From assembly GCF_000384375.1 (NCBI RefSeq), contig NZ_ARVX01000001.1, positions 1 through 64,000 on the forward strand: 64,000 nt of DNA. Reading direction: 5' to 3'. The notes beneath the pieces are model-generated. The model had not been told where the DNA came from. It ran no database searches and saw only the letters and a list, made by a program, of their open reading frames with translations. The position numbers were made by a program, and so were the translations under genes. Below are positions 4,475-64,000 of this stretch, one piece after another (position 1 is the stretch's first letter; each line of letters begins with the position of its first letter). The stretch is from Methylotenera versatilis 79 (GTDB taxonomy: Bacteria > Pseudomonadota > Gammaproteobacteria > Burkholderiales > Methylophilaceae).

Positions 4475-6424
4475 TCACACTAATAAACTATTCATGCGTC
4501 GCACAAAACTTGCAGGGTCGTTCAATTGACCACCTTCTGCCAGCAAAGCCTGATCAAAAACCAAATGCGCTAAATCTTTAAACTTAGCTTCATCGGCTTC
4601 AGCCTCTAAACGTTTCACCAATTTATGCGCAGGGTTAACCTCTAAAACGGGCTTACTATCTGGCGCATTTTGTCCTGCGGCTTTTAAAATACGCGCAAGA
4701 TTAGCTGAAACATCATGCTCGCCCGCCACCAAACAAGCTGGTGAATCAGTTAAGCGATGCGTCACACGCACTTCTTTCACTGCATCGCCCAATGAAGTTT
4801 TAATGCGCTCAATCAAACTTTTCGCATCTTCCTCAATTTTTGCTTTGGCTTCTTTTTCAGACTCATCTTCCAATTTACCCAAATCCAAATCACCTTTAGC
4901 GATTGACTGCAGTTTCTTGCCTTCAAACTCGGTTAAGCTGCCCAATAACCACTCATCCACTTTGTCACTCATCAGTAACACTTCAATACCTTTTTTGCGG
5001 AAGATTTCCAAATGTGGGCTGTGTTGCGCTGCAGCAAAAGTATCCGCCGTAATATAGTAAATCGCTTCTTGCTCAGGCTTCATGCGCCCAATATAGTCAG
5101 CAAATGAGACGTTTTGCACATCGGTATCTGCTTGCGTACTAGCAAATCTCAATAAACCAGCGATTCTATCTTTGTTGGCAAAATCTTCGCCTGGACCTTC
5201 TTTTAATACGCGACCAAATTCTGTCCAAAATTTAGCGTAATCCTCTGGTTTATCTTTTGCTAGCTCTTCTAGTAAACCCAGTACCTTTTTAACCGAACCA
5301 TTTTTAATCGCATCGACATCGCGGCTATCTTGCAGAATTTCGCGCGATACGTTCAAAGGCAAATCAGCAGAATCAATCACGCCGCGCACGAATCTTAAGT
5401 ACTGTGGCATTAGCTTTTCCGCGTCTTCCATAATAAATACGCGTTTCACATACAATTTAATGCCTTGACGACGTTCACGGTCATACAAGTCAAATGGCGC
5501 TTTGCTCGGAATATATAACAATGAAATATATTCCTGTTTGCCTTCTACACGGCTGTGCGTATAGCCAAGCGGCGCTTCATAATCATGCGAAACATGTTTA
5601 TAAAACTCGTTATATTCGTCTGTTGTAATATCATTTTTGCTGCGCGCCCAAAGTGCAGAAGCTTTATTGATGGTTTCCAACTCATCAGTCGTCACCATTT
5701 CGCCTGGCAGTTTCGTACCATCCGCGCCGTCTGCGCCCTCTTTCCATTCCGATTTAAGCATCACGATCGGCAAAGTAATATGGTCAGAATATTTGCGGAT
5801 AATCGATTTTAATTGCCAATCGTTTAAAAATTCGTCTTCATCTTTACGCAAATGCAAAGTGATTTCTGTACCGCGCGATGCTTTTTCTACTGCATCCAGC
5901 GTGTAATCGCCTTCACCAGAACTTGTCCATTTAACCGCTTCAGTACTGCCAGCGCGGCGAGTAGTTAACGTCACTTTATCTGCAATAATAAACGCAGAAT
6001 AAAAACCAACGCCGAATTGACCGATTAGATTGGCATCTTTAGCTTGGTCGCCAGTTAACGCATTAAAGAATTCTTTTGTGCCAGATTTCGCAATCGTACC
6101 AATATTGGCGATGACTTCATCGCGACTCATCCCGATACCGTTATCTGAAATTGTTAGCGTGCGTTTGGCTTTATCAAAGCCAATCTGAATTTTCAACTCG
6201 CTATCATTTTCATACAGCGCACCATTCGCCAGCGCTTCAAATCGCAACTTATCTGCCGCATCTGATGCATTAGAGATCAACTCGCGCAGCACAATCTCTT
6301 TGTTGCTGTACAGCGAATGAATCATCAATTGCAATAATTGTTTTACTTCGGCCTGAAAGGCTAATTTTTCTGATGCTGGTTTTTCCGAAACGTCATTCTC
6401 TGGAACTGAGTTCTTTGAAGCCAT
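4475..6424 (-). CDS. htpG: molecular chaperone HtpG (Hsp90)
   Basis: A bacterial Hsp90, an ATP-driven dimeric cytosolic chaperone. The 649 residues are the usual length. The N-terminal GHKL ATPase motifs are all visible: [27 protein letters not shown] and [12 protein letters not shown]. The middle domain carries the catalytic arginine block [13 protein letters not shown]. It has a 19-residue N-terminal tail ([15 protein letters not shown]) rich in E, S and K before the first conserved block, slightly longer than in E. coli. The ATG has a good GGAGATAAG ribosome binding site. Confidence 0.97.
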
Positions 6425-9030: not shown

Positions 9031-9609
9031 TCACAGCAAGCTCGGCGTTTGCAAAGTAAATAATTTATACCGCCGATTAGTCGTTAAGTGATTGTCATTA
9101 GAATGAAGGCGCAGCCACCATACTGCGCCTTTTTTTATGCTGGTATTATTTTCGCGATTAGCTCGTCCAGCGCTTGCTTCAGCTTGCTCAAATAAATAAG
9201 AAACCAACTGCCCCATCCATGGTTGATGCCCAACGATTAACACATTTTTAGGCGGATTTTTTTGATGTTGAAGTTGTATTAAAACAGCTAATACATCCGC
9301 CAAACTAGCGCTGGGTTTTAATGCATCATGTAATTGAATCTTATCATCCAATGCTTCTGCAGTTTGCAGCGCACGCACGGCTGGGCTGCAAATCATTCGC
9401 GTTTCATCCGGCAAATGTTGTTTTAGCCAACGCGCCATACGTTTGGCTTGCGACTGTCCTTTATGCGTTAATTGGCGCGCATCATCATTTTCGCCCAGCT
9501 CAAAATCTGCTGGTTCTGCCTCTGCGTGGCGCCAGACGATGATATTGTCAAACTTAATTTGCTCAAACTTAGTATGACTAACTTTAGTTAATGCTAATTT
9601 TTCGGTCAT
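9031..9609 (-). CDS. sixA: SixA-type histidine phosphatase
   Basis: A member of the histidine phosphatase superfamily in the SixA branch, which in E. coli removes phosphate from phosphohistidine on signalling proteins. The catalytic motif appears as WRHAEAEP near residues 26-33 (RHG is RHA, normal for SixA), followed by HKGQSQAKRMARWL and the second conserved histidine in VLIVGHQPWMG. At 192 residues it is longer than E. coli SixA (161), with an extra 20-residue N-terminus. It overlaps ppk by 4 nt (ATGA), so the two are translationally coupled; SixA-ppk pairing is also seen in other proteobacteria. Confidence 0.88.
   Translation of the reverse strand: MTEKLALTKVSHTKFEQIKFDNIIVWRHAEAEPADFELGENDDARQLTHKGQSQAKRMARWLKQHLPDETRMICSPAVRALQTAEALDDKIQLHDALKPSASLADVLAVLIQLQHQKNPPKNVLIVGHQPWMGQLVSYLFEQAEASAGRANRENNTSIKKGAVWWLRLHSNDNHLTTNRRYKLFTLQTPSLL
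9108..9136 (+). terminator. Rho-independent terminator inside the 3' end of sixA
   Basis: On the plus strand GGCGCAG (9108-9114) pairs with CTGCGCC (9123-9129) around an 8-nt loop, followed by seven T. It would end transcription of the histone-like gene, yet it lies within the coding sequence of the convergent sixA-like gene, about 25-35 codons before that gene's stop. Confidence 0.75.
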
Positions 9610-11693
9610 TTTTCGCTTGGCGTGTAGGCTTTTATTAATGTTTTCTGCGTACTTAACCGTTTGCTATGGCTAATATTTTGCATATCCAATTGCTGATATG
9701 CGCCGTTCTCTATGAGCACCCAAGCATCTTCGGTATCTTCTAAATAAGGCAATAAACATTCTTGCATCACGCGCGTTTGCATTTCACTGTCTAAAATTGG
9801 CCAGGCAATTTCTACACGGCGAACCATGTTGCGACTCATCCAATCGGCGCTAGAAAGCCACATTCGCTTGATTTGATTGCCCTTGATTGGATTAATCTCA
9901 AAGTAAAAAATGCGCGAATGCTCTAAAAATCGCCCGACAATCGAGCGAATATGAATGCGACCATTTACGCCCGGCGCATCAATCGGCAAAATACACGCGC
10001 CGCGAATAATCAAATCAATCGTAACGCCCTGTTGCGCCGCGCCAATTAACGCTTTAACCAACAGAGTATCCGTTAACGAATTCATTTTTGCGATAATTTT
10101 TGCTTGTCCGCCTAATACGCAAGCGCGTTTTGCCGCTGTAATTCTCCGTAACATGGTCGCTTGCAGATTAAAAGGAGCGACCAATAATTGGCGCATGCGC
10201 GGCAGTGCAATTTGGCTAGTCAAATGCCTGAACACATATTCCACCTCACGCGTGAGCGTTAAATTACTGGTGAGCATGCAAATATCGGTATACAACTTCG
10301 CAGTGTTTGCATTGTAATTTCCGGTTGAAACGTGTGCATAGCGCTTGATGCGTTTACCTTCTTGGCGCATCACCAGTAACATTTTTGCATGCGTTTTTAG
10401 TCCAACCATGCCATAGACGATTTGCGCGCCAATCGCCTCAAGTGACTCCGCCCAGTTAATATTGGTTTCTTCATCAAAACGCGCTTTAATTTCTACAATA
10501 ACCAGCACTTCTTTACCGCGGCGCACCGCCTCTTGCAGCAGATTAAGCATGCGCGGATCGCTACCTGTGCGGTAAATCGTTTGATGAATCGCCAATACTT
10601 TTGGATCATGCACTGCTTCGTGTAAAAACTTGATGACCGCTTCAAAACTTTCGTAAGGACGATGAATCAGCACATCTTTTTGTTTAAGCTGGGTAAAAAA
10701 TGATTCTTCTTGGTTTAAATCTTTAGGCCAAAGCGGCTGAAAAGGCACAAAGGCTAAATCTCTACCATTTGAATCAACACCTTGCGCTAAACCAGTTAAC
10801 TGAATCAATCGGCCCAAATTGACAGGGCCCTGGACGAGGTAAAGTGATGCAGGCGTTAAGTTAAATTCTGCTAACAGAAAATCAGACAAATGCGTCACAC
10901 AACTTTGCGAAACTTCTAAACGCACCGCTTCGCCAAATGGCCGCTGTGCTAACTCTTGACGCAACGCCTTGGGTAAATCATGGATATCATCTTCATCCAA
11001 TGCCAAATCTGAATGACGTGTAACCCTAAACTGAGAGTAACTTAACAACTTTTTTTTCCCAAATAAATCGGGTAAATGCGCGGCGATAATACTGGTTAAG
11101 GTAACAAAATGTTGCTGCGTACCATCAATGTTTGGCAACTGCATCACTCTTGGCAAAATGCGTGGCACGCGAATAATATTAATATTGGGCGGACTATTAG
11201 ACTTGTCTGGCGCTAGTTCTACAATAAAATGCAATGCCTTGCCAGCCACCAAAGGAAACGGATGCGCGCGGTCTAATGCAATCGGTAATAACAGCGGTTT
11301 AACATTATCCTCAAAATATTTAGCGACCCATTTTTTTTGCGCTGGTGTGCGCTCGTGTCCAGCTACAATATCCACACCCGCTTGTTTTAAAGCGGGCATC
11401 AACTCGTCATTGAAAATCGCATATTGCTGCGCGATTAATGCATGCGCTTGCTCAGAAACTGCGTTGAAACTATTAACGGTGACAACGCCTTTTTTGGTGT
11501 GTCGTTGCATGGCATCGATTTGCGCTTCCATGCGCACCTCAAAAAACTCATCCAAGTTTGAGGCAACAATGCACAAAAACTTTAACCGTTCTAATAGTGG
11601 ATAATCTTGGCGTTGTGCCAGACGTAGCACGCGCTGGTTAAAACTGAGAATACTTAAATCACGATCAAGCAGCTTTGTTATTGGCATTATCAT
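9606..11693 (-). CDS. ppk: polyphosphate kinase 1
   Basis: PPK1 makes polyphosphate from the terminal phosphate of ATP, at the inner membrane. The 695-residue length fits the family. The N-terminal domain begins with LLDRDLSILSFNQRVL and DEFFEVRM. The active-site histidines are in GLKTHAKMLLVM (autophosphorylated) and in YAHVSTGNYN, and the second phospholipase-D-like half has EHSRIFYFE. Two starts lie three codons apart (ATG ATA ATG). Downstream sixA overlaps by 4 nt. A PhoB-like box lies 36 nt upstream, in keeping with phosphate control. Confidence 0.97.
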   Translation of the reverse strand: MIMPITKLLDRDLSILSFNQRVLRLAQRQDYPLLERLKFLCIVASNLDEFFEVRMEAQIDAMQRHTKKGVVTVNSFNAVSEQAHALIAQQYAIFNDELMPALKQAGVDIVAGHERTPAQKKWVAKYFEDNVKPLLLPIALDRAHPFPLVAGKALHFIVELAPDKSNSPPNINIIRVPRILPRVMQLPNIDGTQQHFVTLTSIIAAHLPDLFGKKKLLSYSQFRVTRHSDLALDEDDIHDLPKALRQELAQRPFGEAVRLEVSQSCVTHLSDFLLAEFNLTPASLYLVQGPVNLGRLIQLTGLAQGVDSNGRDLAFVPFQPLWPKDLNQEESFFTQLKQKDVLIHRPYESFEAVIKFLHEAVHDPKVLAIHQTIYRTGSDPRMLNLLQEAVRRGKEVLVIVEIKARFDEETNINWAESLEAIGAQIVYGMVGLKTHAKMLLVMRQEGKRIKRYAHVSTGNYNANTAKLYTDICMLTSNLTLTREVEYVFRHLTSQIALPRMRQLLVAPFNLQATMLRRITAAKRACVLGGQAKIIAKMNSLTDTLLVKALIGAAQQGVTIDLIIRGACILPIDAPGVNGRIHIRSIVGRFLEHSRIFYFEINPIKGNQIKRMWLSSADWMSRNMVRRVEIAWPILDSEMQTRVMQECLLPYLEDTEDAWVLIENGAYQQLDMQNISHSKRLSTQKTLIKAYTPSEK

Positions 11694-11728: not shown

Positions 11729-11746
11729 ATGACAGTTTTGTGAAAC
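11729..11746 (-). promoter_or_regulatory. candidate PhoB box before ppk
   Basis: The minus strand reads GTTTCACAAAACTGTCAT, 13 of 18 identical to the E. coli PhoB box CTGTCATAAATCTGTCAC. Another heptamer TTGTCAT follows at 11707-11713, 22 nt further and so on the same 11-nt helical phase. The -10 candidate at the expected position (GAAATT, 11713-11718) is poor. The rest of the 276-nt gap between ppk and tcdA (11694-11969) holds a small hairpin at 11918-11935 (AGTCACT/AGTGACT) that may end the tcdA transcript, and no gene. Confidence 0.5.
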
Positions 11747-50795: not shown

Positions 50796-52250
50796 TTAGT
50801 AGTTATATTGCACTTGAACACGCAATGCATCTGCATTGAAATTTTCGTAATCTTCTCTGGCCGGTAAATTGTTGCTTGCACTTGCGGTCGCTCGATTACC
50901 TGTTACCAAATTAGTACGATTCATGCGATGGTAAACTGCAGTCACTTCTACCTCTGGTGCGATTTGCCACTCTACGCCCAGTTCCCAATCATGTACCTGA
51001 TTTTTAGGTGAGTTGGTTTCCGCTTTATTGTAACCATCAAAATATTGATATTTAATAAATGGAATTACCGTACCGTTAGTATCGAAGAAATGCACATTAT
51101 CGATTTTGTACATCGCTTGCACATAACCACCGTTTAGATTCTTTTTCTCAATAGAATTAGAGGCTAAATCTAACCCTGGCGTTTTACCCCAGTTCCACTC
51201 TGCTTGTAAACCAAACGGCTGTGGATACATCATAAAACTTAAACCCACACGCTCATCGTCAATACCGTTACGACCTGAAAGCGGCGTACCCGTACCTAAA
51301 GTTGGCGTAACTGATGCAAGCGTGCCAACCGCATTACGTCTGCTGTATGCACCAGTAGTCGACACATATTCACCTTTGTAACCTTGAATACCCGCCTCAT
51401 AAATTTGGCCACTTTCAGTTTTCCAAGGATATGTGTAACGCGCAACGACGTGGTAATTATCGTTTTGATCACGTGCATTGGCACCTTGGCCGTTATACGC
51501 ACCGATACCAAATTGACCATAATTACCCGTATGTTTTAAACCTAATTTTCCGATTTCTTCAAACAAAGCTTGAGTGGTTTCTGGTGTGTAATAGTAGAAC
51601 GCACCTAAGTCACGCTCATCACGTACCGCACTGTTTAATGCATCGTTACGATCTAACGCTAAACGGTTTTGGCTGGATTGTAAGTTTTCAAAACCAAACG
51701 GAATTTTTGATTGACCCACACGAATACGATGCACGCGTGTTTTATCAAAATAGATATCACCATAAGCATCGCGCAATTGTGCAAAGTTACCCGCGCCACT
51801 GGCGTTTGAGTTGGTTGTACCACCGACTGAACTCGCAAAATCTGGCTGAATGTAATAACTCAAATGATCACCATAATCACCATAAATCACCAAACGTGCA
51901 CGGCGAATCAAGAAGTTTTTATCTGCATCGCCAAGTGATTTATCATCACCCACAGAGCGGTCAGACCATAAATTAATACCGTCATCTCCACCTAACATGG
52001 TGGTATTGCGCACTTGTACGTAGCCGCGTAATTTAACGCTGTTAGTTGAGAATTTGCTCTCTTTTTTCTTTTGAACGCCCATCTCTTCAGCGCGGCCTTT
52101 TGTCAATAATGCGCCTTCTTCTTCTGTCAGAACGCCTTTACTCACCAATGCTTGTACTAAATCCAAATTAGCATCAGCCATCGCATCACCGCCCATTAAA
52201 GCGCTGCTGGTTAATGCTGTTGCCATCATTTTACGTAGTTTGAAACTCAT
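50796..52250 (-). CDS. phosphate-selective porin OprP/OprO family
   Basis: A 484-residue outer-membrane porin. Signal peptide about 1-25 (cleavage near AMA). Residues 30-65 hold a helical segment (VQALVSKGVLTEEEGALLTKG) of the kind often preceding porin barrels in this family. The barrel ends in VQVQYNY with terminal aromatic Tyr. Segments such as KNFLIRRARLVIYGDYGDHLSYYIQPDFAS and RVGQSKIPFGFENLQSSQNR fit OprP/OprO. Named for phosphate-selectivity, a role supported by the excellent PhoB box upstream. Polyphosphate or pyrophosphate is the alternative. Confidence 0.88.
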   Translation of the reverse strand: MSFKLRKMMATALTSSALMGGDAMADANLDLVQALVSKGVLTEEEGALLTKGRAEEMGVQKKKESKFSTNSVKLRGYVQVRNTTMLGGDDGINLWSDRSVGDDKSLGDADKNFLIRRARLVIYGDYGDHLSYYIQPDFASSVGGTTNSNASGAGNFAQLRDAYGDIYFDKTRVHRIRVGQSKIPFGFENLQSSQNRLALDRNDALNSAVRDERDLGAFYYYTPETTQALFEEIGKLGLKHTGNYGQFGIGAYNGQGANARDQNDNYHVVARYTYPWKTESGQIYEAGIQGYKGEYVSTTGAYSRRNAVGTLASVTPTLGTGTPLSGRNGIDDERVGLSFMMYPQPFGLQAEWNWGKTPGLDLASNSIEKKNLNGGYVQAMYKIDNVHFFDTNGTVIPFIKYQYFDGYNKAETNSPKNQVHDWELGVEWQIAPEVEVTAVYHRMNRTNLVTGNRATASASNNLPAREDYENFNADALRVQVQYNY

Positions 52251-52302: not shown

Positions 52303-52336
52303 ATTTTGGTGTGACAACATGACAAATTTATGACAG
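52303..52336 (-). promoter_or_regulatory. PhoB box and -10 before the porin
   Basis: The minus strand reads CTGTCATAAATTTGTCAT (52336 to 52319), 16 of 18 identical to the E. coli box CTGTCATAAATCTGTCAC. A further heptamer TTGTCAC follows within 52311-52317. After exactly 10 nt comes CAAAAT (52308-52303), a 4-of-6 match to the -10. This is the geometry of a PhoB-activated promoter. Confidence 0.85.
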
Positions 52337-55828: not shown

Positions 55829-55846
55829 CTGTAACATTATTGTCAT
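55829..55846 (+). promoter_or_regulatory. PhoB-like repeats overlapping a -10 before DUF47-pit
   Basis: CTGTAAC-ATTA-TTGTCAT (55829-55846) has the two-heptamer spacing of a PhoB box, about 12 of 18 identical to the consensus. Its end overlaps CATAAT (55844-55849), a 5-of-6 -10 match, and the usual 10-nt offset -10 (GCAACT) is poor. That position would favour repression over activation. Weak call. Confidence 0.35.
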
Positions 55847-57609: not shown

Positions 57610-57643
57610 TTGTCATAAATTTGTCACACTATCCAACTAAAGT
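57610..57643 (+). promoter_or_regulatory. PhoB box and -10 before pstS
   Basis: TTGTCATAAATTTGTCAC (57610-57627) is 16 of 18 identical to the E. coli PhoB box. Exactly 10 nt later stands TAAAGT (57638-57643), a 4-of-6 -10, at the spacing of PhoB-activated promoters. It lies in the 171-nt gap between pit and pstS. Confidence 0.87.
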
Positions 57644-57707: not shown

Positions 57708-58706
57708 ATGAACACCCTGTTTGGCAAGTCATTACAAGTTGCAGCGCTGGTTGCTGCAACTTTATCAACATCACATGGTTTTGCAGCTGAAAAAATCGTT
57801 AAGATTGATGGTTCAAGTACCGTTTATCCGATTACTGAAGCGGTGGCTGAAGAGTATCAAATCGCCACTAAAGTAAAAGTAACGGTTGGTATTTCTGGCA
57901 CGGGTGGCGGTTTTAAAAAATTCTGCCGCGGCGAAACAGATGTGCAAAATGCATCACGCCCAATCTTAAAAAAAGAGATGGATGCTTGTAAAGAAGCAGG
58001 TATTCAATACATTGAATTGCCAGTCGCTTATGATGGTTTAACCGTTGTGGTGAACAAAAATAATGATTTCGTAAAAAGCTTAACGGTTGAAGAGCTGAAA
58101 ACAATGTGGGAACCAGCAGCGCAAGGCAAAATTAAATCTTGGAAACAAGTGAATCCAGCTTTCCCTGATACACCACTTAAATTGTTTGGCGCAGGCTCAG
58201 ACTCTGGAACGTTCGATTATTTTACAGAAGCAATCGTAGGCAAAGCAAAATCTAGCCGCGGCGATTACACGGCTTCAGAAGATGACAACGTATTAGTGCA
58301 AGGCGTGCAATCAGATAAAGGCGGTTTAGGTTATTTTGGTTTTGCTTACTTTGAAGAAAACCAAGACAAATTAAAAGCGGTGCCAATCGTGGCTAAAAAA
58401 GGTGCTGCTGCGGTGATGCCTTCATTTGAAACAGTTAAAAACGGTACATATCAACCGCTTGCACGCCCATTGTTTATTTACGTGAATGCTGCTTCTGCTG
58501 CATTTAAACCAGAGATTAAAGCATTCGTTAATTTCTATTTAGAAAACGCACCAACTTTAGTAAAAGAAGTGAAATATATTCCGTTGCCAGCTAATGAGTA
58601 TGCTGCTGTAAACAAGCACTGGAAAGCGTTAAAACCTGGTACAGGCTTTGACGGTACACCAGAGGTCGGTGTTAAAATCGAAGAGTTATTAGCACGTATT
58701 AAGTAA
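57708..58706 (+). CDS. pstS: phosphate ABC transporter substrate-binding protein PstS
   Basis: PstS captures phosphate in the periplasm for the Pst transporter. Signal peptide about 1-25 (cleavage at GFA). The phosphate-binding residues are in IDGSSTVYPITEAVAEEYQ and GISGTGGGFKKFCRGETD, with GAGSDSGTFDYFTEAIVGK (the SGT motif). 332 residues. A terminator follows after 14 nt, so pstS is not co-transcribed (or only weakly) with pstCAB. The PhoB box lies 81 nt before the start. Confidence 0.95.
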   Translation: MNTLFGKSLQVAALVAATLSTSHGFAAEKIVKIDGSSTVYPITEAVAEEYQIATKVKVTVGISGTGGGFKKFCRGETDVQNASRPILKKEMDACKEAGIQYIELPVAYDGLTVVVNKNNDFVKSLTVEELKTMWEPAAQGKIKSWKQVNPAFPDTPLKLFGAGSDSGTFDYFTEAIVGKAKSSRGDYTASEDDNVLVQGVQSDKGGLGYFGFAYFEENQDKLKAVPIVAKKGAAAVMPSFETVKNGTYQPLARPLFIYVNAASAAFKPEIKAFVNFYLENAPTLVKEVKYIPLPANEYAAVNKHWKALKPGTGFDGTPEVGVKIEELLARIK

Positions 58707-58720
58707 CTTTTGCATGGCAA

Positions 58721-58747
58721 AAAAGACGACTTCATGTCGTCTTTTTT
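58721..58747 (+). terminator. terminator between pstS and pstC
   Basis: AAAAGACGAC (58721-58730) and GTCGTCTTTT (58736-58745) form a 10-bp stem with loop TTCAT, followed by more T. On the plus strand it would stop most pstS transcripts. The 252-nt gap (58707-58958) otherwise carries the pstC control sites. Confidence 0.88.
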
Positions 58748-58866
58748 ATTATCTAAATATGTGCCTACCTTTGTTAAGTATTCAAGCAGGCGCATTAGAT
58801 TTGATAGCCGACTTAAGCGCGTTATCATCGCAAATTAAACACCCCGCCAAGCAACGCAAATGTAAA

Positions 58867-58900
58867 TTGTCTTATATTTGTCACATTAATTCATTACAAT
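58867..58900 (+). promoter_or_regulatory. PhoB box and -10 before pstC
   Basis: TTGTCTTATATTTGTCAC (58867-58884) is 14 of 18 identical to the E. coli PhoB box; TACAAT (58895-58900), a 5-of-6 -10, follows after exactly 10 nt. So pstCAB has its own PhoB-type promoter downstream of the pstS terminator. Confidence 0.82.
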
Positions 58901-58903
58901 ACG

Positions 58904-58948
58904 GTCACAAAGCATAAAGCTTATAACACTAAAGTCACAAACATAAAG
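58904..58948 (+). repeat. two direct repeats in the pstC leader
   Basis: GTCACAAAGCATAAAG (58904-58919) and GTCACAAACATAAAG (58934-58948) differ by one inserted G and start 30 nt apart, directly after the predicted -10 of the pstC promoter and before the pstC start at 58959. The TCACA core resembles half a PhoB heptamer on the other strand, but the 30-nt period does not fit the 11-nt PhoB pitch exactly. Confidence 0.6.
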
Positions 58949-58958
58949 TTCCTAAACA

Positions 58959-59888
58959 ATGGCCACTGCAAATCACAATACTTCAATTAGTCCACGTTTA
59001 GCCAAAAATATTAAACGTAACGTGCGCGAACGCATTATTGAATTTATTTTAATGTTAGCGGCGTTATCTGCGGTATTAACCACTTTTGCGATTGTTGCGG
59101 TGTTAATCGTTGAGTCTTTAACGTTTTTTAAAGCGGTTTCATTGTTTGATTTTCTAACGGATACACAATGGACACCGTTATTTGAGGATGCCCATTTTGG
59201 CATTATGCCGCTGGTTGCGGGTACATTAACTACCTCATTTATCGCGCTGTGTGTAGCGATTCCACTGGGTACGATTGGTGCTATTTACTTATCTGAATTC
59301 GCCAGCCATAAAGTGCGCGAAATCGTTAAGCCCATTTTAGAGTTATTAGTGGGCGTACCAACAGTGGTTTTTGGTTACTTTGCGCTGTTATTCGTCACAC
59401 CGTTATTACAAAAAATATTCCCCGATTTGCCTGGTTTTAACATGTTAGGTCCAGGTATCGTCATCGGCATTATGATTATTCCTTATATCAGCTCAGTGGC
59501 TGAAGATGCGATGCGCGCCGTGCCGATGAGTATGCGTGAAGGTAGTTACGCCATGGGCGCAACGCGCTTTCAAACAGCGGTTAAAGTGGTTACACCAGCA
59601 GCGCTGTCAGGCATTATCGCCGCTTATATTTTAGCGATTTCGCGTGCAGTGGGTGAGACGATGGTGGTCGCTATCGCCGCAGGCCAACAGCCTAACTTAA
59701 CCTTTAATCCGATGGAAAGCGCAGCGACAATCACGGCTTATATCGTGCAAGTTGCTCTGGGTGACTTGCCGCACGGCAGCATTGGTTACCAAAGTATTTT
59801 TGCGGCTGGTTTAGTGCTGATGTTAATGACTTTAACATTCAATATTCTTGGCCACGTCGCACGCAAAAAATTCCGCCAAAACTATTAA
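58959..59888 (+). CDS. pstC: phosphate ABC transporter permease PstC
   Basis: One of the two channel subunits. Six transmembrane helices begin near residue 26; the ABC-transporter EAA-like loop is SMREGSYAMGATRFQTAVKVVTPAALSGIIAA, whose central part GATRFQTAVKVV is typical of PstC, and FGIMPLVAGTLTTSFIALCVAIPLG is the conserved first block. 309 residues. A 41-nt gap to pstA. Confidence 0.95.
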   Translation: MATANHNTSISPRLAKNIKRNVRERIIEFILMLAALSAVLTTFAIVAVLIVESLTFFKAVSLFDFLTDTQWTPLFEDAHFGIMPLVAGTLTTSFIALCVAIPLGTIGAIYLSEFASHKVREIVKPILELLVGVPTVVFGYFALLFVTPLLQKIFPDLPGFNMLGPGIVIGIMIIPYISSVAEDAMRAVPMSMREGSYAMGATRFQTAVKVVTPAALSGIIAAYILAISRAVGETMVVAIAAGQQPNLTFNPMESAATITAYIVQVALGDLPHGSIGYQSIFAAGLVLMLMTLTFNILGHVARKKFRQNY

Positions 59889-59929
59889 TATATCGATAAG
59901 AACAATCATTAAAGCAGCCATTAATTACT

Positions 59930-60883
59930 ATGAATGAATTAGCTAAAAAAACGCAGATCAGTGTGCTGGATAACTTGGATAGCGTGCGTGCGATGATTCG
60001 GCGCCACAAACGTAATGATATTTTGTTTTCCATCATCGGCTTAATCGCATTGATGATTGGCTTGCTGACTTTATGTACGCTGTTTATCGATTTAATCGTC
60101 GATGGATACGGCCGTTTTAATATCGATTTTTTGACCAACTTTCCTTCTCGCCGTGCCGCGCGCGCGGGTTTGTTATCTGCTTGGGTCGGCTCACTATTAG
60201 TGATGACAGTCACCTTTTTAACCGCAGTGCCAATGGGCGTTGCAGCTGGTTTGTATTTAGAAGAATATGCAAAAAAAGGTTGGCTTTCAGATTTAATCGA
60301 AATCAACGTTTCAAACTTAGCTGGCGTGCCTTCTATTGTTTACGGCTTATTAGCGCTGGGATTATTCGTTTATGGTTTAGGTTTAGGCCAAAGTATTTTA
60401 ACCGCAGGTCTAACGCTGGGTTTACTGATTTTACCTATCGTCATCGTTTCTACACGTGAATCCATCCGAGCGATTCCTGTGGCGATACGCGAAGCCGCTT
60501 ATGCGGTTGGCGCCACCAAATGGCAAGTGGTCAAAGACCATGTTTTAAAATACTCACAAGGTGGTATTTTAACTGGCGTGATTATCGGTATGGCGCGCGC
60601 ATTGGGCGAAACAGCACCTGTAATTACGATTGGCGCACTCACATTTATTGCGTTTTTGCCGCCCTCACCCATAACTGAAACGCCGCCTTTTATCAATTTC
60701 GATTGGTTAACTTCTGGCTTTACCGTCTTGCCGATTCAAATGTTCAATTGGCTATCGCGCCCAGATCACGCATTCCATATCAATGCCGCAGCAACTGGCG
60801 CCATTATTATTATCGTCACCTTACTGATGAACGGCACAGCTATTTATTTACGCTACAAGATTCGTAAAAACATTAAGTGGTAA
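59930..60883 (+). CDS. pstA: phosphate ABC transporter permease PstA
   Basis: The second Pst permease, with about six transmembrane helices from residue 34. The coupling-loop motif is IREAAYAVGATKWQVVKDHVLKYSQGGILTG (in the 180-210 region), and MGVAAGLYLEEYAKKG is the conserved N-terminal block of PstA. 317 residues. It has a long N-terminal cytosolic tail (1-30). A 64-nt gap to pstB. Confidence 0.95.
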   Translation: MNELAKKTQISVLDNLDSVRAMIRRHKRNDILFSIIGLIALMIGLLTLCTLFIDLIVDGYGRFNIDFLTNFPSRRAARAGLLSAWVGSLLVMTVTFLTAVPMGVAAGLYLEEYAKKGWLSDLIEINVSNLAGVPSIVYGLLALGLFVYGLGLGQSILTAGLTLGLLILPIVIVSTRESIRAIPVAIREAAYAVGATKWQVVKDHVLKYSQGGILTGVIIGMARALGETAPVITIGALTFIAFLPPSPITETPPFINFDWLTSGFTVLPIQMFNWLSRPDHAFHINAAATGAIIIIVTLLMNGTAIYLRYKIRKNIKW

Positions 60884-60947
60884 TCAATAGAACCAATTTT
60901 AGAAATAAAAAGATTTAAAAAATTAAAGGTATTTTCGGGAAAAATTT

Positions 60948-61727
60948 ATGGCCAATGTAACAACCGCAATTAAAGCAGAGTCGCGTGATTTAAACTTTTT
61001 TTACAGCAACGGCATGCAAGCTTTAAAAAGTGTGAATATGCCTTTGTACGAAAATAAAATCACCGCATTAATTGGTCCATCAGGCTGTGGTAAATCTACA
61101 TTCTTACGCTGTTTTAACCGCATGCACGATCTGTATCCTGGCAATAAATACCAAGGTCAAATCGTCATGCAGCCGGATAACACCAACATTTTGGAGCCGG
61201 GTGTAGATCCAATCGAAGTGCGCATGCGCATTAGCATGGTGTTTCAAAAGCCGAATCCTTTTCCTAAATCTATTTACGAGAATGTGGCTTACGGCTTGCG
61301 CGTACGTGGCGAAAAAAATAAGCGTATGGTCGATGACAAAGTAGAGGAAGCGTTAAAAGGCGGTGCATTGTGGAACGAAGTAAAAGACCGTTTGCACGAT
61401 TTAGCTTTCAACTTATCTGGCGGTCAGCAACAACGTCTGTGTATCGCGCGCGCATTGGCGACAGATCCAGAAATCATGTTGTTTGATGAACCGACTTCTG
61501 CACTTGACCCAATCGCTACCGCCAATATTGAAGAGTTGATGAGCGAATTGCGCAATAAATTAACGATATTAGTTGTTACACACAATATGCAACAAGCGGC
61601 GCGCGTGTCAGATTACACCGCGTATATGTACTTAGGCGAATTGATTGAATATGGCGATACCGATATGATTTTCACCCGTCCGACGCGCAAAGAAACCGAA
61701 GATTACATTACGGGTAAATTTGGTTAA
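60948..61727 (+). CDS. pstB: phosphate ABC transporter ATP-binding protein PstB
   Basis: The ATPase of the Pst transporter. Walker A is [21 protein letters not shown], of which GPSGCGKST is the loop; the ABC signature is [15 protein letters not shown] and Walker [14 protein letters not shown]. 259 residues, all parts complete. A terminator follows and no phoU comes after it, which is unusual for the pst operon. Confidence 0.97.
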
Positions 61728-61851: not shown

Positions 61852-63054
61852 TTAACTCTGTTGTGTATTCAATACTGCTGGCTTATTTAAAACGCTATTT
61901 TGCATGCCGGCAATCACCATATAATATTTAATCATGCGTTCTGCTTGCGTAGCAGCAGACCATTTTTGTTGCGCATAATGACGTGCAGATTCGCTTAATT
62001 GCTGGCGACGTTGTGGGTTAATTAACAGGCTATGCACTTTTTGCACGAATTCAGATTCATTTTCAGTTGAAATCAGCGCGCCCTGTCCTTCTATCAAAAT
62101 AGAAGCTGTGCCCAGTTCTGCAATCGCTACAACAGGCGTGCCTTGTGCCATCGCTTCTAAAATCACCAACCCTTGCGTTTCACTTTTTGAAGCAAACACG
62201 AATACATCAGCCGATTTATAGCAGCTATTCAATTCTGTCGCACGATCTAGATAGCCAATAAATTGCACATTTTTTTCAATATGATGTGCTTTAACCAATG
62301 CGCGCAAACTAGGCAAAGCGGGACCTTCGCCAGCAATCACCAACAACACATCAGGCATTACATCGCTTAATAATTTAGCGACTACTAATAAAAATCCAAT
62401 GTTTTTTTCATGCGCTACACGACCGACATATAAAATCATCGGGCGCTCTGGCGCTATGCCATGCTTCTGTTTAAACGCATTTCCATCTGCAGCGCTAAAG
62501 CTGCTCGGTTGCAAGCCTGTCGCAATCACTTCTGCCAATGTATCGATGCCGTAAGTACGCAACACATCTAACATCGGTTGTGATGGTGCAACAATCGCAT
62601 CTACTTGATTACACTGCTTTTTAGAGATTAATCGCGCCAAACCACGTGCTGCGAATTGTGGAATCCATGGCAAATAATGATGTAAATAATCTTCAAAAAA
62701 AGTATGGTAGGTTTCCAATACTGGAATTTGCAGCAGCTTGGATAATTTAAAACCCGCATAATGCGCAACAAATGGCGTATGAATATGAATCACATCAAAA
62801 CGCTTTGCTTTTAGCGAAGGTGCGATACGCAGCACTTCGTTATATTTCATCAACTTATCTTCAGGATCAAAATAGATAGAACGTGCGGGCACGCGCGTGA
62901 TCCACGCTTCATCCTCAGTGGTTACGCCATAATCTGGCGCAATAAGATGTACGTGGTGACCTAGAGCTTGTAATTGCTGAGTAAACGTTCGAATTGAAGT
63001 GGAAACGCCGTTGACGCGTGGGAAATAAACATCTGAAATCAGTAATATATTCAT
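61852..63054 (-). CDS. GT4-family glycosyltransferase, likely lipid-modifying
   Basis: A 400-residue GT-B enzyme. The N-terminal domain begins NILLISDVYFPRVNGVSTSI, a pattern of the GT4 group that includes diacylglycerol glucosyl/galactosyltransferases; HIHTPFVAHYAGFKLSKLL is the acceptor-domain block. The C-terminal NDP-sugar site is ILYVGRVAHEKNIGFLL and the E-X7-E motif is in ASKSETQGLVILEAMAQG (residues near 290-310). No signal peptide. A PhoB-like box lies just upstream, and a phospholipase-C-like gene is divergent, so glycolipid synthesis under phosphate lack is the likely job (inference). Alternatives are mannosyl or glucuronosyl transfer to other lipids. Confidence 0.85.
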   Translation of the reverse strand: MNILLISDVYFPRVNGVSTSIRTFTQQLQALGHHVHLIAPDYGVTTEDEAWITRVPARSIYFDPEDKLMKYNEVLRIAPSLKAKRFDVIHIHTPFVAHYAGFKLSKLLQIPVLETYHTFFEDYLHHYLPWIPQFAARGLARLISKKQCNQVDAIVAPSQPMLDVLRTYGIDTLAEVIATGLQPSSFSAADGNAFKQKHGIAPERPMILYVGRVAHEKNIGFLLVVAKLLSDVMPDVLLVIAGEGPALPSLRALVKAHHIEKNVQFIGYLDRATELNSCYKSADVFVFASKSETQGLVILEAMAQGTPVVAIAELGTASILIEGQGALISTENESEFVQKVHSLLINPQRRQQLSESARHYAQQKWSAATQAERMIKYYMVIAGMQNSVLNKPAVLNTQQS

Positions 63055-63079
63055 TCACTTAACCATAAAAGTTTTATTT

Positions 63080-63113
63080 ATACTAACTTTTGTTTGTGAC
63101 AGATTAATGAATA
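63080..63113 (-). promoter_or_regulatory. PhoB box and -10 before the glycosyltransferase
   Basis: On the minus strand TATTCATTAATCTGTCAC (63113 to 63096) is 14 of 18 identical to the E. coli box. Exactly 10 nt on stands TAGTAT (63085-63080), a 4-of-6 -10. The start codon is 25 nt further. Confidence 0.7.
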
Positions 63114-63146
63114 TATCAAAGTCTTAGCCACACTTTTAATATGAAT

Positions 63147-63186
63147 GTGTCACGCAATTATCATGGCGCTGTCATGTGAAATTCAT
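63147..63186 (+). promoter_or_regulatory. four heptamers on an 11-nt pitch before the phospholipase-like gene
   Basis: GTGTCAC (63147), TTATCAT (63158), CTGTCAT (63169) and AATTCAT (63180) each start 11 nt after the last, which is the PhoB-monomer spacing. Only the first and third are close to CTGTCAT; the others share TCAT. The -10 candidates (TGTGAA, CAAAGT) are poor, so this is a weaker case than the glycosyltransferase side. Confidence 0.45.
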
Positions 63187-63209
63187 GCAGTGATGACAAA
63201 GTGGCGGGC

Positions 63210-64000
63210 ATGAAAAAGCGTTTACTTCGTCATTTTTCCCGTCATTTCCCCCGTAATTTTTTATGGTGTTTACCGCTTAGTCTCTTTTCAATAGATGCCA
63301 ACGCTTGGGGCTTATATACGCATATTTATTTTGCACAATGGCTGTTGATGGCAAGCCCTTTGCTAGATCCAAAGATTCAACAAGCGATTAAAAAATTCCC
63401 CACACTGGTTTTGGCTGGCGCTTGTTTGCCGGACCTTGCGATTATTTCAAAACATTTTCACACCACGCATCAATGGCAAAAAGCCGAATGGATGATAGAA
63501 AATGCGCATTCAGAACAAGAGATAGCAATTGCGGTGGGTTACACCAGCCACCTATTTGTTGATGTGGTCGCGCATAATCACTTTGTGCCTGCATTTGAGG
63601 CAAAATGGAAACGCATACCTTGGTTGAATAACACGCTGATTACGCATATCGCTTCAGAATGGGCGATGGATGCACACATTGCCAAACATATTGAATACAC
63701 GCCGAATCAGTTAATACGTTTGCATATAGATGAGTTAAGCGCGTTTGTAGCACCGTGTTTTTTTAATGACGACATTGATTTTAAATATTCACCAGCATAT
63801 TTTTCTGCACAAGCATCTGTGCACTTAAAGCGATTAGCTTGGGCAGATTATGTCTTAAGAAAAAGTCGATTATCATCTGCGGTATTGGCCTTAATCAATT
63901 TTAAAGATAAACGATTTGTGAAAAATTTGGAATATTATTTGGTTAAGACTAAAAATGCATTAACGCATTTTGACCAATCCGTTCAAGGCAATCGGCCAAT
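63210..64000 (+). CDS. zinc-dependent phospholipase C-like exported protein (partial, runs off the edge)
   Basis: The frame opens with ATG at 63210 and has 263 complete codons before the window ends. After a signal-peptide-like start (KKRLLRHFSRHFPRNFLWCL, then PLSLFSIDANA) come AWGLYTHIYFAQ and, later, YTSHLFVDVVAHNHFVPAFE and ASEWAMDAHI, which fit the zinc-dependent phospholipase C family (PF00882 as I recall it), with His and Asp ligand residues. A non-catalytic relative cannot be excluded, because the 3' end is missing. It is divergent from the glycosyltransferase with a shared 155-nt control region. The start is uncertain; no strong RBS is visible (GTGGCGGGC). Confidence 0.7.
   Translation, partial: MKKRLLRHFSRHFPRNFLWCLPLSLFSIDANAWGLYTHIYFAQWLLMASPLLDPKIQQAIKKFPTLVLAGACLPDLAIISKHFHTTHQWQKAEWMIENAHSEQEIAIAVGYTSHLFVDVVAHNHFVPAFEAKWKRIPWLNNTLITHIASEWAMDAHIAKHIEYTPNQLIRLHIDELSAFVAPCFFNDDIDFKYSPAYFSAQASVHLKRLAWADYVLRKSRLSSAVLALINFKDKRFVKNLEYYLVKTKNALTHFDQSVQGNRP

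Follow-up and report, generated by a model that had tools for sequence, protein, structure and literature searches.

Gene content of the locus

We analysed a stretch of 64,000 nucleotides (nt) from Methylotenera versatilis 79 (contig NZ_ARVX01000001.1, positions 1 to 64,000, forward strand; hereafter the window), a methanol-using member of the Methylophilaceae whose genome is a single contig of 2.60 Mb. At the right end of the window a GT4 glycosyltransferase (GT) gene and a gene for a zinc-phospholipase-C-like protein of family PF00882 (PLC) are divergently transcribed beside pstSCAB. This arrangement had been described in a first-pass annotation, and gene calls and profile searches bear it out. 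The window ends inside the PLC gene. When the sequence past the window end is included, the gene order is pstSCAB, GT4 (minus strand), Zn_dep_PLPC (plus strand) and PAP2 phosphatase (minus strand). The locus is treated here as a probable module for membrane-lipid remodelling under phosphate starvation. Its genes are as follows.

57708-61727, plus strand: phosphate transporter genes pstSCAB, adjacent (profile matches for pstS and pstB; pstC and pstA recognised by eye)
61852-63054, minus strand: GT4 glycosyltransferase (GT-A), 400 amino acids (Pfam and NCBIfam matches)
63210-64000 in the window, plus strand: PF00882 zinc-phospholipase-C-like gene, with the gene end at window-equivalent 64124 (Pfam, 62.8 bits)
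64218-64757, beyond the window, minus strand: PAP2 phosphatase (PF01569)

The open reading frame (ORF) of PLC can start at GTG 63201 or ATG 63210, giving a full protein of 307 or 304 amino acids, respectively. The closest named relative among the matches returned, from which near-self records may be excluded, was that of Methylotenera versatilis 7 (82% identity).

The PF00882 enzyme

The 266 amino acids of PLC encoded in the window scored 62.8 bits against PF00882 (Zn_dep_PLPC, cut-off 26.8), and a full-length homolog scored 60.5 bits. Up to E = 1, the Pfam scan of this part gave no S1-P1 nuclease match. The ligand set of zinc phospholipases C, as seen in solved relatives, consists of W1, H, D, H, HxxxDxxxxxH and HxxxE. 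In these enzymes and in P1 nuclease the metal is bound by the N-terminal Trp of the mature protein. Residues W33, H38, D75, H87, H114, D118, H124, H146 and E150 (numbered from the window ATG) were invariant among the 23 sequences of alignment A1. The presumed zinc ligands were also invariant in alignment A3 (47 sequences), and the ligand motifs were detected in 76/76 named homologs tested (4 of 80 were skipped for lack of a clear start). The Trp was nearly invariant in alignment A4, which was built from script-cut sequences; one wrong-strand ORF (L082) in a further alignment was disregarded. W33 follows a signal-peptide-like stretch ending in DANA (judged by eye), and it would therefore be the N terminus of the mature PLC. 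Given this start, the conserved Trp behind it and the full complement of presumed zinc ligands, PLC probably acts in the periplasm, unlike PlcP, the phospholipase of the established remodelling pathway.

AlphaFold models of PLC had predicted local distance difference test (pLDDT) scores of 85 and 88. A sequence search of the PDB with PLC returned chance-level matches only (best E 0.78). In a Foldseek search with the core model, chains of SmNuc1, an S1/P1-type nuclease, ranked 3, 12 and 21 among the 50 matches listed (E 0.9-2.2). They had the highest probability and template-modelling (TM) scores of those matches (0.35-0.43; others ≤0.26), which makes the fold suggestive at most.

The glycosyltransferase

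GT-A scored 137.8 bits against Glycos_transf_1 and 112.5 bits against Glyco_transf_4. Its top NCBIfam model was NF049988, alpha-monoglucosyldiacylglycerol synthase (150 bits, residues 1-381). A resemblance to diacylglycerol glycosyltransferases had been noted from the start of the protein; the best named models are lipid GTs, but the scores lie well below the cut-offs. We regard GT-A as a probable diacylglycerol glycosyltransferase on the basis of these profile matches and of the position of its relatives, which are near PLC or PlcP in most of the genomes surveyed. A role in exopolysaccharide synthesis was considered and rejected: the best models are lipid GTs, exopolysaccharide models scored lower, and the neighbours are lipid genes. 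GT-A is 49% identical to a GT on a Thiodictyon plasmid, which itself adjoins a PlcP-like gene. A second GT present in some related loci (GT-B, see below) is 33-36% identical to the PlcP-adjacent GT of Sphingomonas (12 rows above 150 bits), compared with 28% for GT-A.

Distribution of PLC and PlcP

We surveyed 187 genomes of the family. PLC was found in 116, PlcP in 24, and both in 1 (G185, locus L198). The PlcP search returned 69 genomes at E ≤ 1e-10, and the figure of 24 is of those with rows of at least 120 bits; the 45 genomes with rows of about 58 bits or less were taken as LpxH and dropped. The PlcP-like gene of G185 is divergent (best identity 49%) and lies on a different contig from GT. 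GT was present in 144/187 genomes at E ≤ 1e-80. These GT-positive genomes carry PLC alone (112), PlcP alone (22), both (1) or neither (9), so that 135/144 have one phospholipase and/or the other. The 43 GT-negative genomes have PLC in 3, PlcP in 1 and neither in 39. GT and PLC are divergent and less than 300 bp apart in 78 of the 113 genomes with both, and less than 3 kb apart in 108/113. The distance from GT to PlcP is 5 kb or less in 21/23 family genomes with both genes. In a survey of 300 genomes sampled across the order Burkholderiales, PLC was found in 47, PlcP (E ≤ 1e-40) in 148 and both in none (Fisher p 2.5e-16, kinship ignored). Among the loci fetched outside the family, GT lies near PlcP in 8/11.

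The identity of PlcP was approached through relatives. Seven of 61 relatives' genomes have GT without PLC, and five of these carry a metallophosphoesterase (PF00149) near GT. It shares 47% identity with a protein of Sinorhizobium meliloti whose database name is UDP-2,3-diacylglucosamine diphosphatase. We take the latter to be PlcP (SMc00171), since genes of LuxR type and for acyl-homoserine-lactone synthase adjoin it, as they do SMc00171. PlcP-like genes ∼50% identical to the comparator were also seen on Pseudomonas aeruginosa plasmid records (H10-H12). The possibility that M. versatilis 79 itself has a PlcP elsewhere in its genome was rejected: the PF00149 search found one protein, ApaH-like by eye, and the PlcP profile search of this genome returned nothing at E ≤ 1e-10.

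Six genera (g9, g69, g86, g96, g98 and g107) have PLC and PlcP in different genomes. In the g96 pair G394/G290, the space between matching flanks is taken by PLC in one genome and by an oppositely oriented PlcP gene in its partner. The flanking identities are 92 and 84% for the ORFs on one side, 80% for GT-A, 80% for GT-B, 91% for DgkA and 84% for the next ORF. The PLC locus of this pair has one additional ORF of 166 amino acids without a Pfam match. In one more g96 genome (G364), PlcP lacks the neighbours seen in G394/G290. At least five changes between PLC and PlcP were counted on a GT-A tree over 57 labelled rows, a quick tree with long-branch warnings from which 11 GT rows without either partner nearby were excluded. 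The distribution and the exchange between matching flanks support PLC as a non-homologous replacement of PlcP. The first-pass annotation had proposed the role of PlcP for a phospholipase of another family. This proposal gains support from the linkage of GT to PlcP in relatives without PLC, from co-occurrence in only 1/187 and 0/300 genomes, and from the exchange in one same-genus pair.

Pho boxes at the locus

The divergent promoter region contains the following elements.

63080-63085, minus strand: TAGTAT resembling a -10 element, 10 nt past the Pho box of GT (from the sequence)
63096-63113, minus strand: two-heptamer Pho box of GT (TATTCAT and CTGTCAC, separated by taat)
63147-63186, plus strand: Pho array of PLC with four heptamers at an 11-nt pitch

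The GT-side box reads TATTCATTAATCTGTCAC on the minus strand (63113-63096), followed by a 10-nt gap and TAGTAT (63085-63080). The sequence agrees with the earlier reading of a PhoB box with a -10 at exactly 10 nt on this side, and the four heptamers at an 11-nt pitch claimed for the PLC side are present at 63147-63186. We scanned 75 kb on both strands (∼150,000 positions) with a heptamer score derived manually from the E. coli consensus once the region had been inspected by eye; on this score the PLC array ranked 1 with three or four heptamers and 3 with two. With two heptamers the GT box ranked 7, but with three only 111, and the pstS box at 57610 ranked 2 for both two and three. Eleven of the 14 best two-heptamer sites precede PLC, GT, pstS, pstC, Porin_O_P, ppk, the PhoU-like/pit pair or PAP2. 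Two of the others (25786 and 56968) lie within coding ORFs, and the third is at 6190. The PhoB of this genome scored 348 bits (cut-off 296), and a strong Pho array lies upstream of its own phoB gene. As far as sequence alone can tell, both marks of a PhoB regulon are present, namely PhoB and direct-repeat boxes.

Three further sites of the scan lie away from the GT/PLC pair. The top two-heptamer box of the 75 kb is at 52336 (minus strand), where it precedes a gene for a phosphate-selective porin (Porin_O_P, 50796-52250). A Pho-box-like pair at 11746 (minus strand) stands immediately upstream of the polyphosphate kinase gene ppk (9606-11693), which may belong to the Pho regulon. Another pair at 55829 (plus strand) precedes the genes for a PhoU-like protein (PF01865) and a Pit-type transporter, after which pstSCAB follows.

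Pho boxes in related loci

Boxes were sought in 100 related loci with 99 shuffles each at a threshold of p ≤ 0.02; these loci are akin and the counts are not independent. A box was found upstream of PLC in 77/85, GT in 65/97, PAP2 in 63/81, PstS in 20/25, OlsB in 7/10 and OlsA-like genes in 1/8. For five control genes the counts were 0/50 (GlmM), 1/48 (FolP), 2/32 (FtsH), 1/19 (RrmJ) and 0/15 (PhoU), or 4/164 when pooled. Further control genes gave 5/44 (PstB), 0/5 (Pit), 0/8 (DadA) and 3/11 (c24). DgkA was rejected as a member of the Pho set, with a box in 1/35 loci. In an earlier run with three heptamers (80 loci, 60 shuffles, p ≤ 0.05), the corresponding figures were 75/80 for PLC, 33/76 for GT, 53/67 for PAP2 and 5/29 for DgkA.

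In 44/85 related loci, the best three-heptamer stretch before PLC begins exactly 63 nt upstream of the start codon (starts picked by rule). The promoter consensus comes solely from loci selected for this 63-nt spacing (43/79). Heptamer pairs like that of the GT box also occur in near relatives. Of 15 GT promoters, one from the window and 14 from near named relatives, 8 have TAG[CT]AT ∼10 nt after a CTGTCAY-like heptamer, and the others have variants of it.

Lipid-gene neighbours

Neighbours were counted in the best 80 of 308 named PLC loci, many of which are on short contigs. A GT of either kind lies near PLC in 77 of these loci, PAP2 in 71, DgkA (PF01219) in 29, OlsB in 7, an OlsA-like gene in 6 and any pst gene in 43. 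Loci of the Gallionella/Sideroxydans type (L157-L163) contain PLC, PAP2 and the second GT (GT-B). Six of these seven add DgkA, OlsB and OlsA-like genes; the sequence of the remaining one (L160) ends too early. In L194, L195 and L196, GT and PAP2 are adjacent with no PLC between them.

M. versatilis 79 has its own OlsB/OlsA-like pair ∼315 kb from the PLC locus, with the OlsA-like protein scoring 141.7 bits against a curated cut-off of 300. A three-heptamer Pho array (L232:1277-1305, near 378,700 in this genome) lies 80 nt before the likely OlsB-like start, and the OlsA-like gene comes next, suggesting that ornithine lipids are phosphate-controlled in this genome too.

Proposed pathway and alternative explanations

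We consider it likely that the locus is a PhoB-controlled membrane-lipid remodelling module in which the PF00882 phospholipase replaces PlcP. PLC is read as a stand-in for PlcP because the two hardly ever occur together, GT tracks either of them, they have been exchanged, the neighbours are lipid genes, Pho arrays precede the genes and the presumed zinc ligands are conserved. Under low phosphate, PhoB would switch on the exported PLC, the divergent GT4 and the downstream PAP2. PLC would then cleave phosphorylated head groups off membrane phospholipids on the periplasmic side, leaving diacylglycerol. After movement of the diacylglycerol to the cytoplasmic leaflet, GT would add a sugar to form a phosphorus-free glycolipid. 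DgkA, which is clustered with PLC in some relatives, could turn diacylglycerol back into phosphatidate. The released phosphate compounds would be dephosphorylated and the phosphate imported by the adjacent Pst system. PLC was likely recruited independently and would supply the diacylglycerol for glycolipid synthesis. We lean slightly towards the broader view that there are two analogous, interchangeable and mutually exclusive starters of phosphate-starvation lipid recycling, the cytosolic PlcP and the exported PF00882 enzyme, which have been swapped repeatedly within the order, the exported one giving a periplasmic first step.

Several observations weigh against this interpretation. The 150 bits of GT-A compare with a curated cut-off of 400 for NF049988, which places GT-A outside that model, and its identity to the PlcP-adjacent GT of the alphaproteobacterium Sphingomonas is only 28%. 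Foldseek searches with full-length and core PLC models gave no PDB match at E ≤ 0.001. Nine GT-positive family genomes have neither phospholipase, three PLC-positive genomes and one PlcP-positive genome have no GT, and G185 has both phospholipases. Outside the family, GT was near PLC in 6/9 loci fetched. A Pho box precedes PlcP genes in only 4/8 cases, and DgkA genes are without Pho boxes (1/35 loci with one). The DgkA gene of M. versatilis 79 itself lies elsewhere, near 616,000, without a strong Pho box. Transcripts of plcP assigned to Methylotenera (3%) are reported in PMC9239053.

The PF00882 protein might instead be a Pho-regulated periplasmic or secreted enzyme that scavenges phosphate from outside phospholipids or, as a possible relative of S1/P1 nucleases, from nucleic acids, and that is co-regulated with GT and takes no part in glycolipid synthesis. 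The signal-peptide-like start and conserved Trp would suit such an enzyme, as would the SmNuc1 chains, which are the best in probability and TM score (0.35-0.43, at E 0.9-2.2) among the 50 matches listed for the core, and the presence of a pst gene at 43 of the 80 named PLC loci counted above. We nevertheless think it unlikely: scavenging leaves the mutual exclusion with PlcP and the exchange between matching flanks unexplained, along with the linkage to DgkA, Ols and lipid-type GT genes, and the Pfam scan of the window part of PLC, up to E = 1, gave PF00882 and nothing from the S1-P1 nucleases.

Diacylglycerol for a lipid GT could also come de novo from phosphatidate through PAP2, with PLC as an accessory. 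PAP2 keeps its place beside GT where a genome lacks both phospholipases (L194, L195 and L196, for example), and Pho boxes precede it in 63/81 loci. The presence of PLC or PlcP in 135/144 GT-positive family genomes makes this route quite improbable as the explanation. Lineage sorting without a common function would account for the PLC/PlcP pattern if kinship among genomes, which are not independent, had produced it, and many of the family genomes with PLC do come from a few genera. It can be given hardly any weight against six genera holding each kind in different genomes, at least five switches on the GT tree and the exchange between matching flanks.

If the remodelling interpretation is true, the pathway can begin at the periplasmic side, where phosphate could be stripped from the freed head group for immediate capture by Pst. 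Owing to the repeated swaps within genera, there are also matched species pairs in which the strengths of PLC and PlcP could be compared.

Comparison with known systems

PlcP-Agt remodelling is described for Phaeobacter MED193, SAR11, Pseudomonas aeruginosa and Methylosinus trichosporium OB3b in PMC4796936, PMC8528852 and PMC9239053. The locus resembles that system in its pairing of a phospholipase gene with a GT4 gene, its Pho boxes and its phosphate-starvation setting. In relatives, the same GT sits near PlcP itself. The locus differs in having a PF00882 phospholipase with a signal-peptide-like start in place of the calcineurin-like PlcP, and in the divergent orientation of GT and PLC. The identity of GT-A to comparators that were chosen by PlcP adjacency is 28% (Sphingomonas) and 49% (Thiodictyon).

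The literature consulted, including PMC4796936, PMC8528852, PMC11978286, PMC11844350, PMC2912341 and PMC9239053, shows the PlcP-Agt pathway; no PF00882 counterpart in lipid remodelling appeared among the titles and abstract openings listed. The words phospholipase and glycosyl(transferase) are absent from the main texts of PMC11844350 and PMC11978286. A literature search joining Methylophilaceae, phospholipase C and glycosyltransferase gave no match. The plcP gene serves as a marker for bacteria capable of low-phosphate lipid remodelling (PMC4796936 and PMC9239053). Should PLC be a second phospholipase with this function, plcP surveys overlook much of the methylotroph family (PLC in 116 and PlcP in 24 of 187 genomes).

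The best-known zinc phospholipases C of PF00882 are secreted enzymes of Gram-positive bacteria. PLC is like these in its score above the cut-off, the Trp after a signal-peptide-like stretch and the His/Asp/Glu ligand pattern. It is unlike them in belonging to a Pho-regulated lipid cluster of a Gram-negative bacterium, and in having no significant match to a PDB sequence or fold. The OlsBA route to ornithine lipids is likewise a way to a phosphorus-free membrane lipid, and OlsB/OlsA-like genes are part of the Gallionella/Sideroxydans-type island; the difference is that in M. versatilis 79 the OlsB/OlsA-like pair is ∼315 kb off, though a Pho array is present there.

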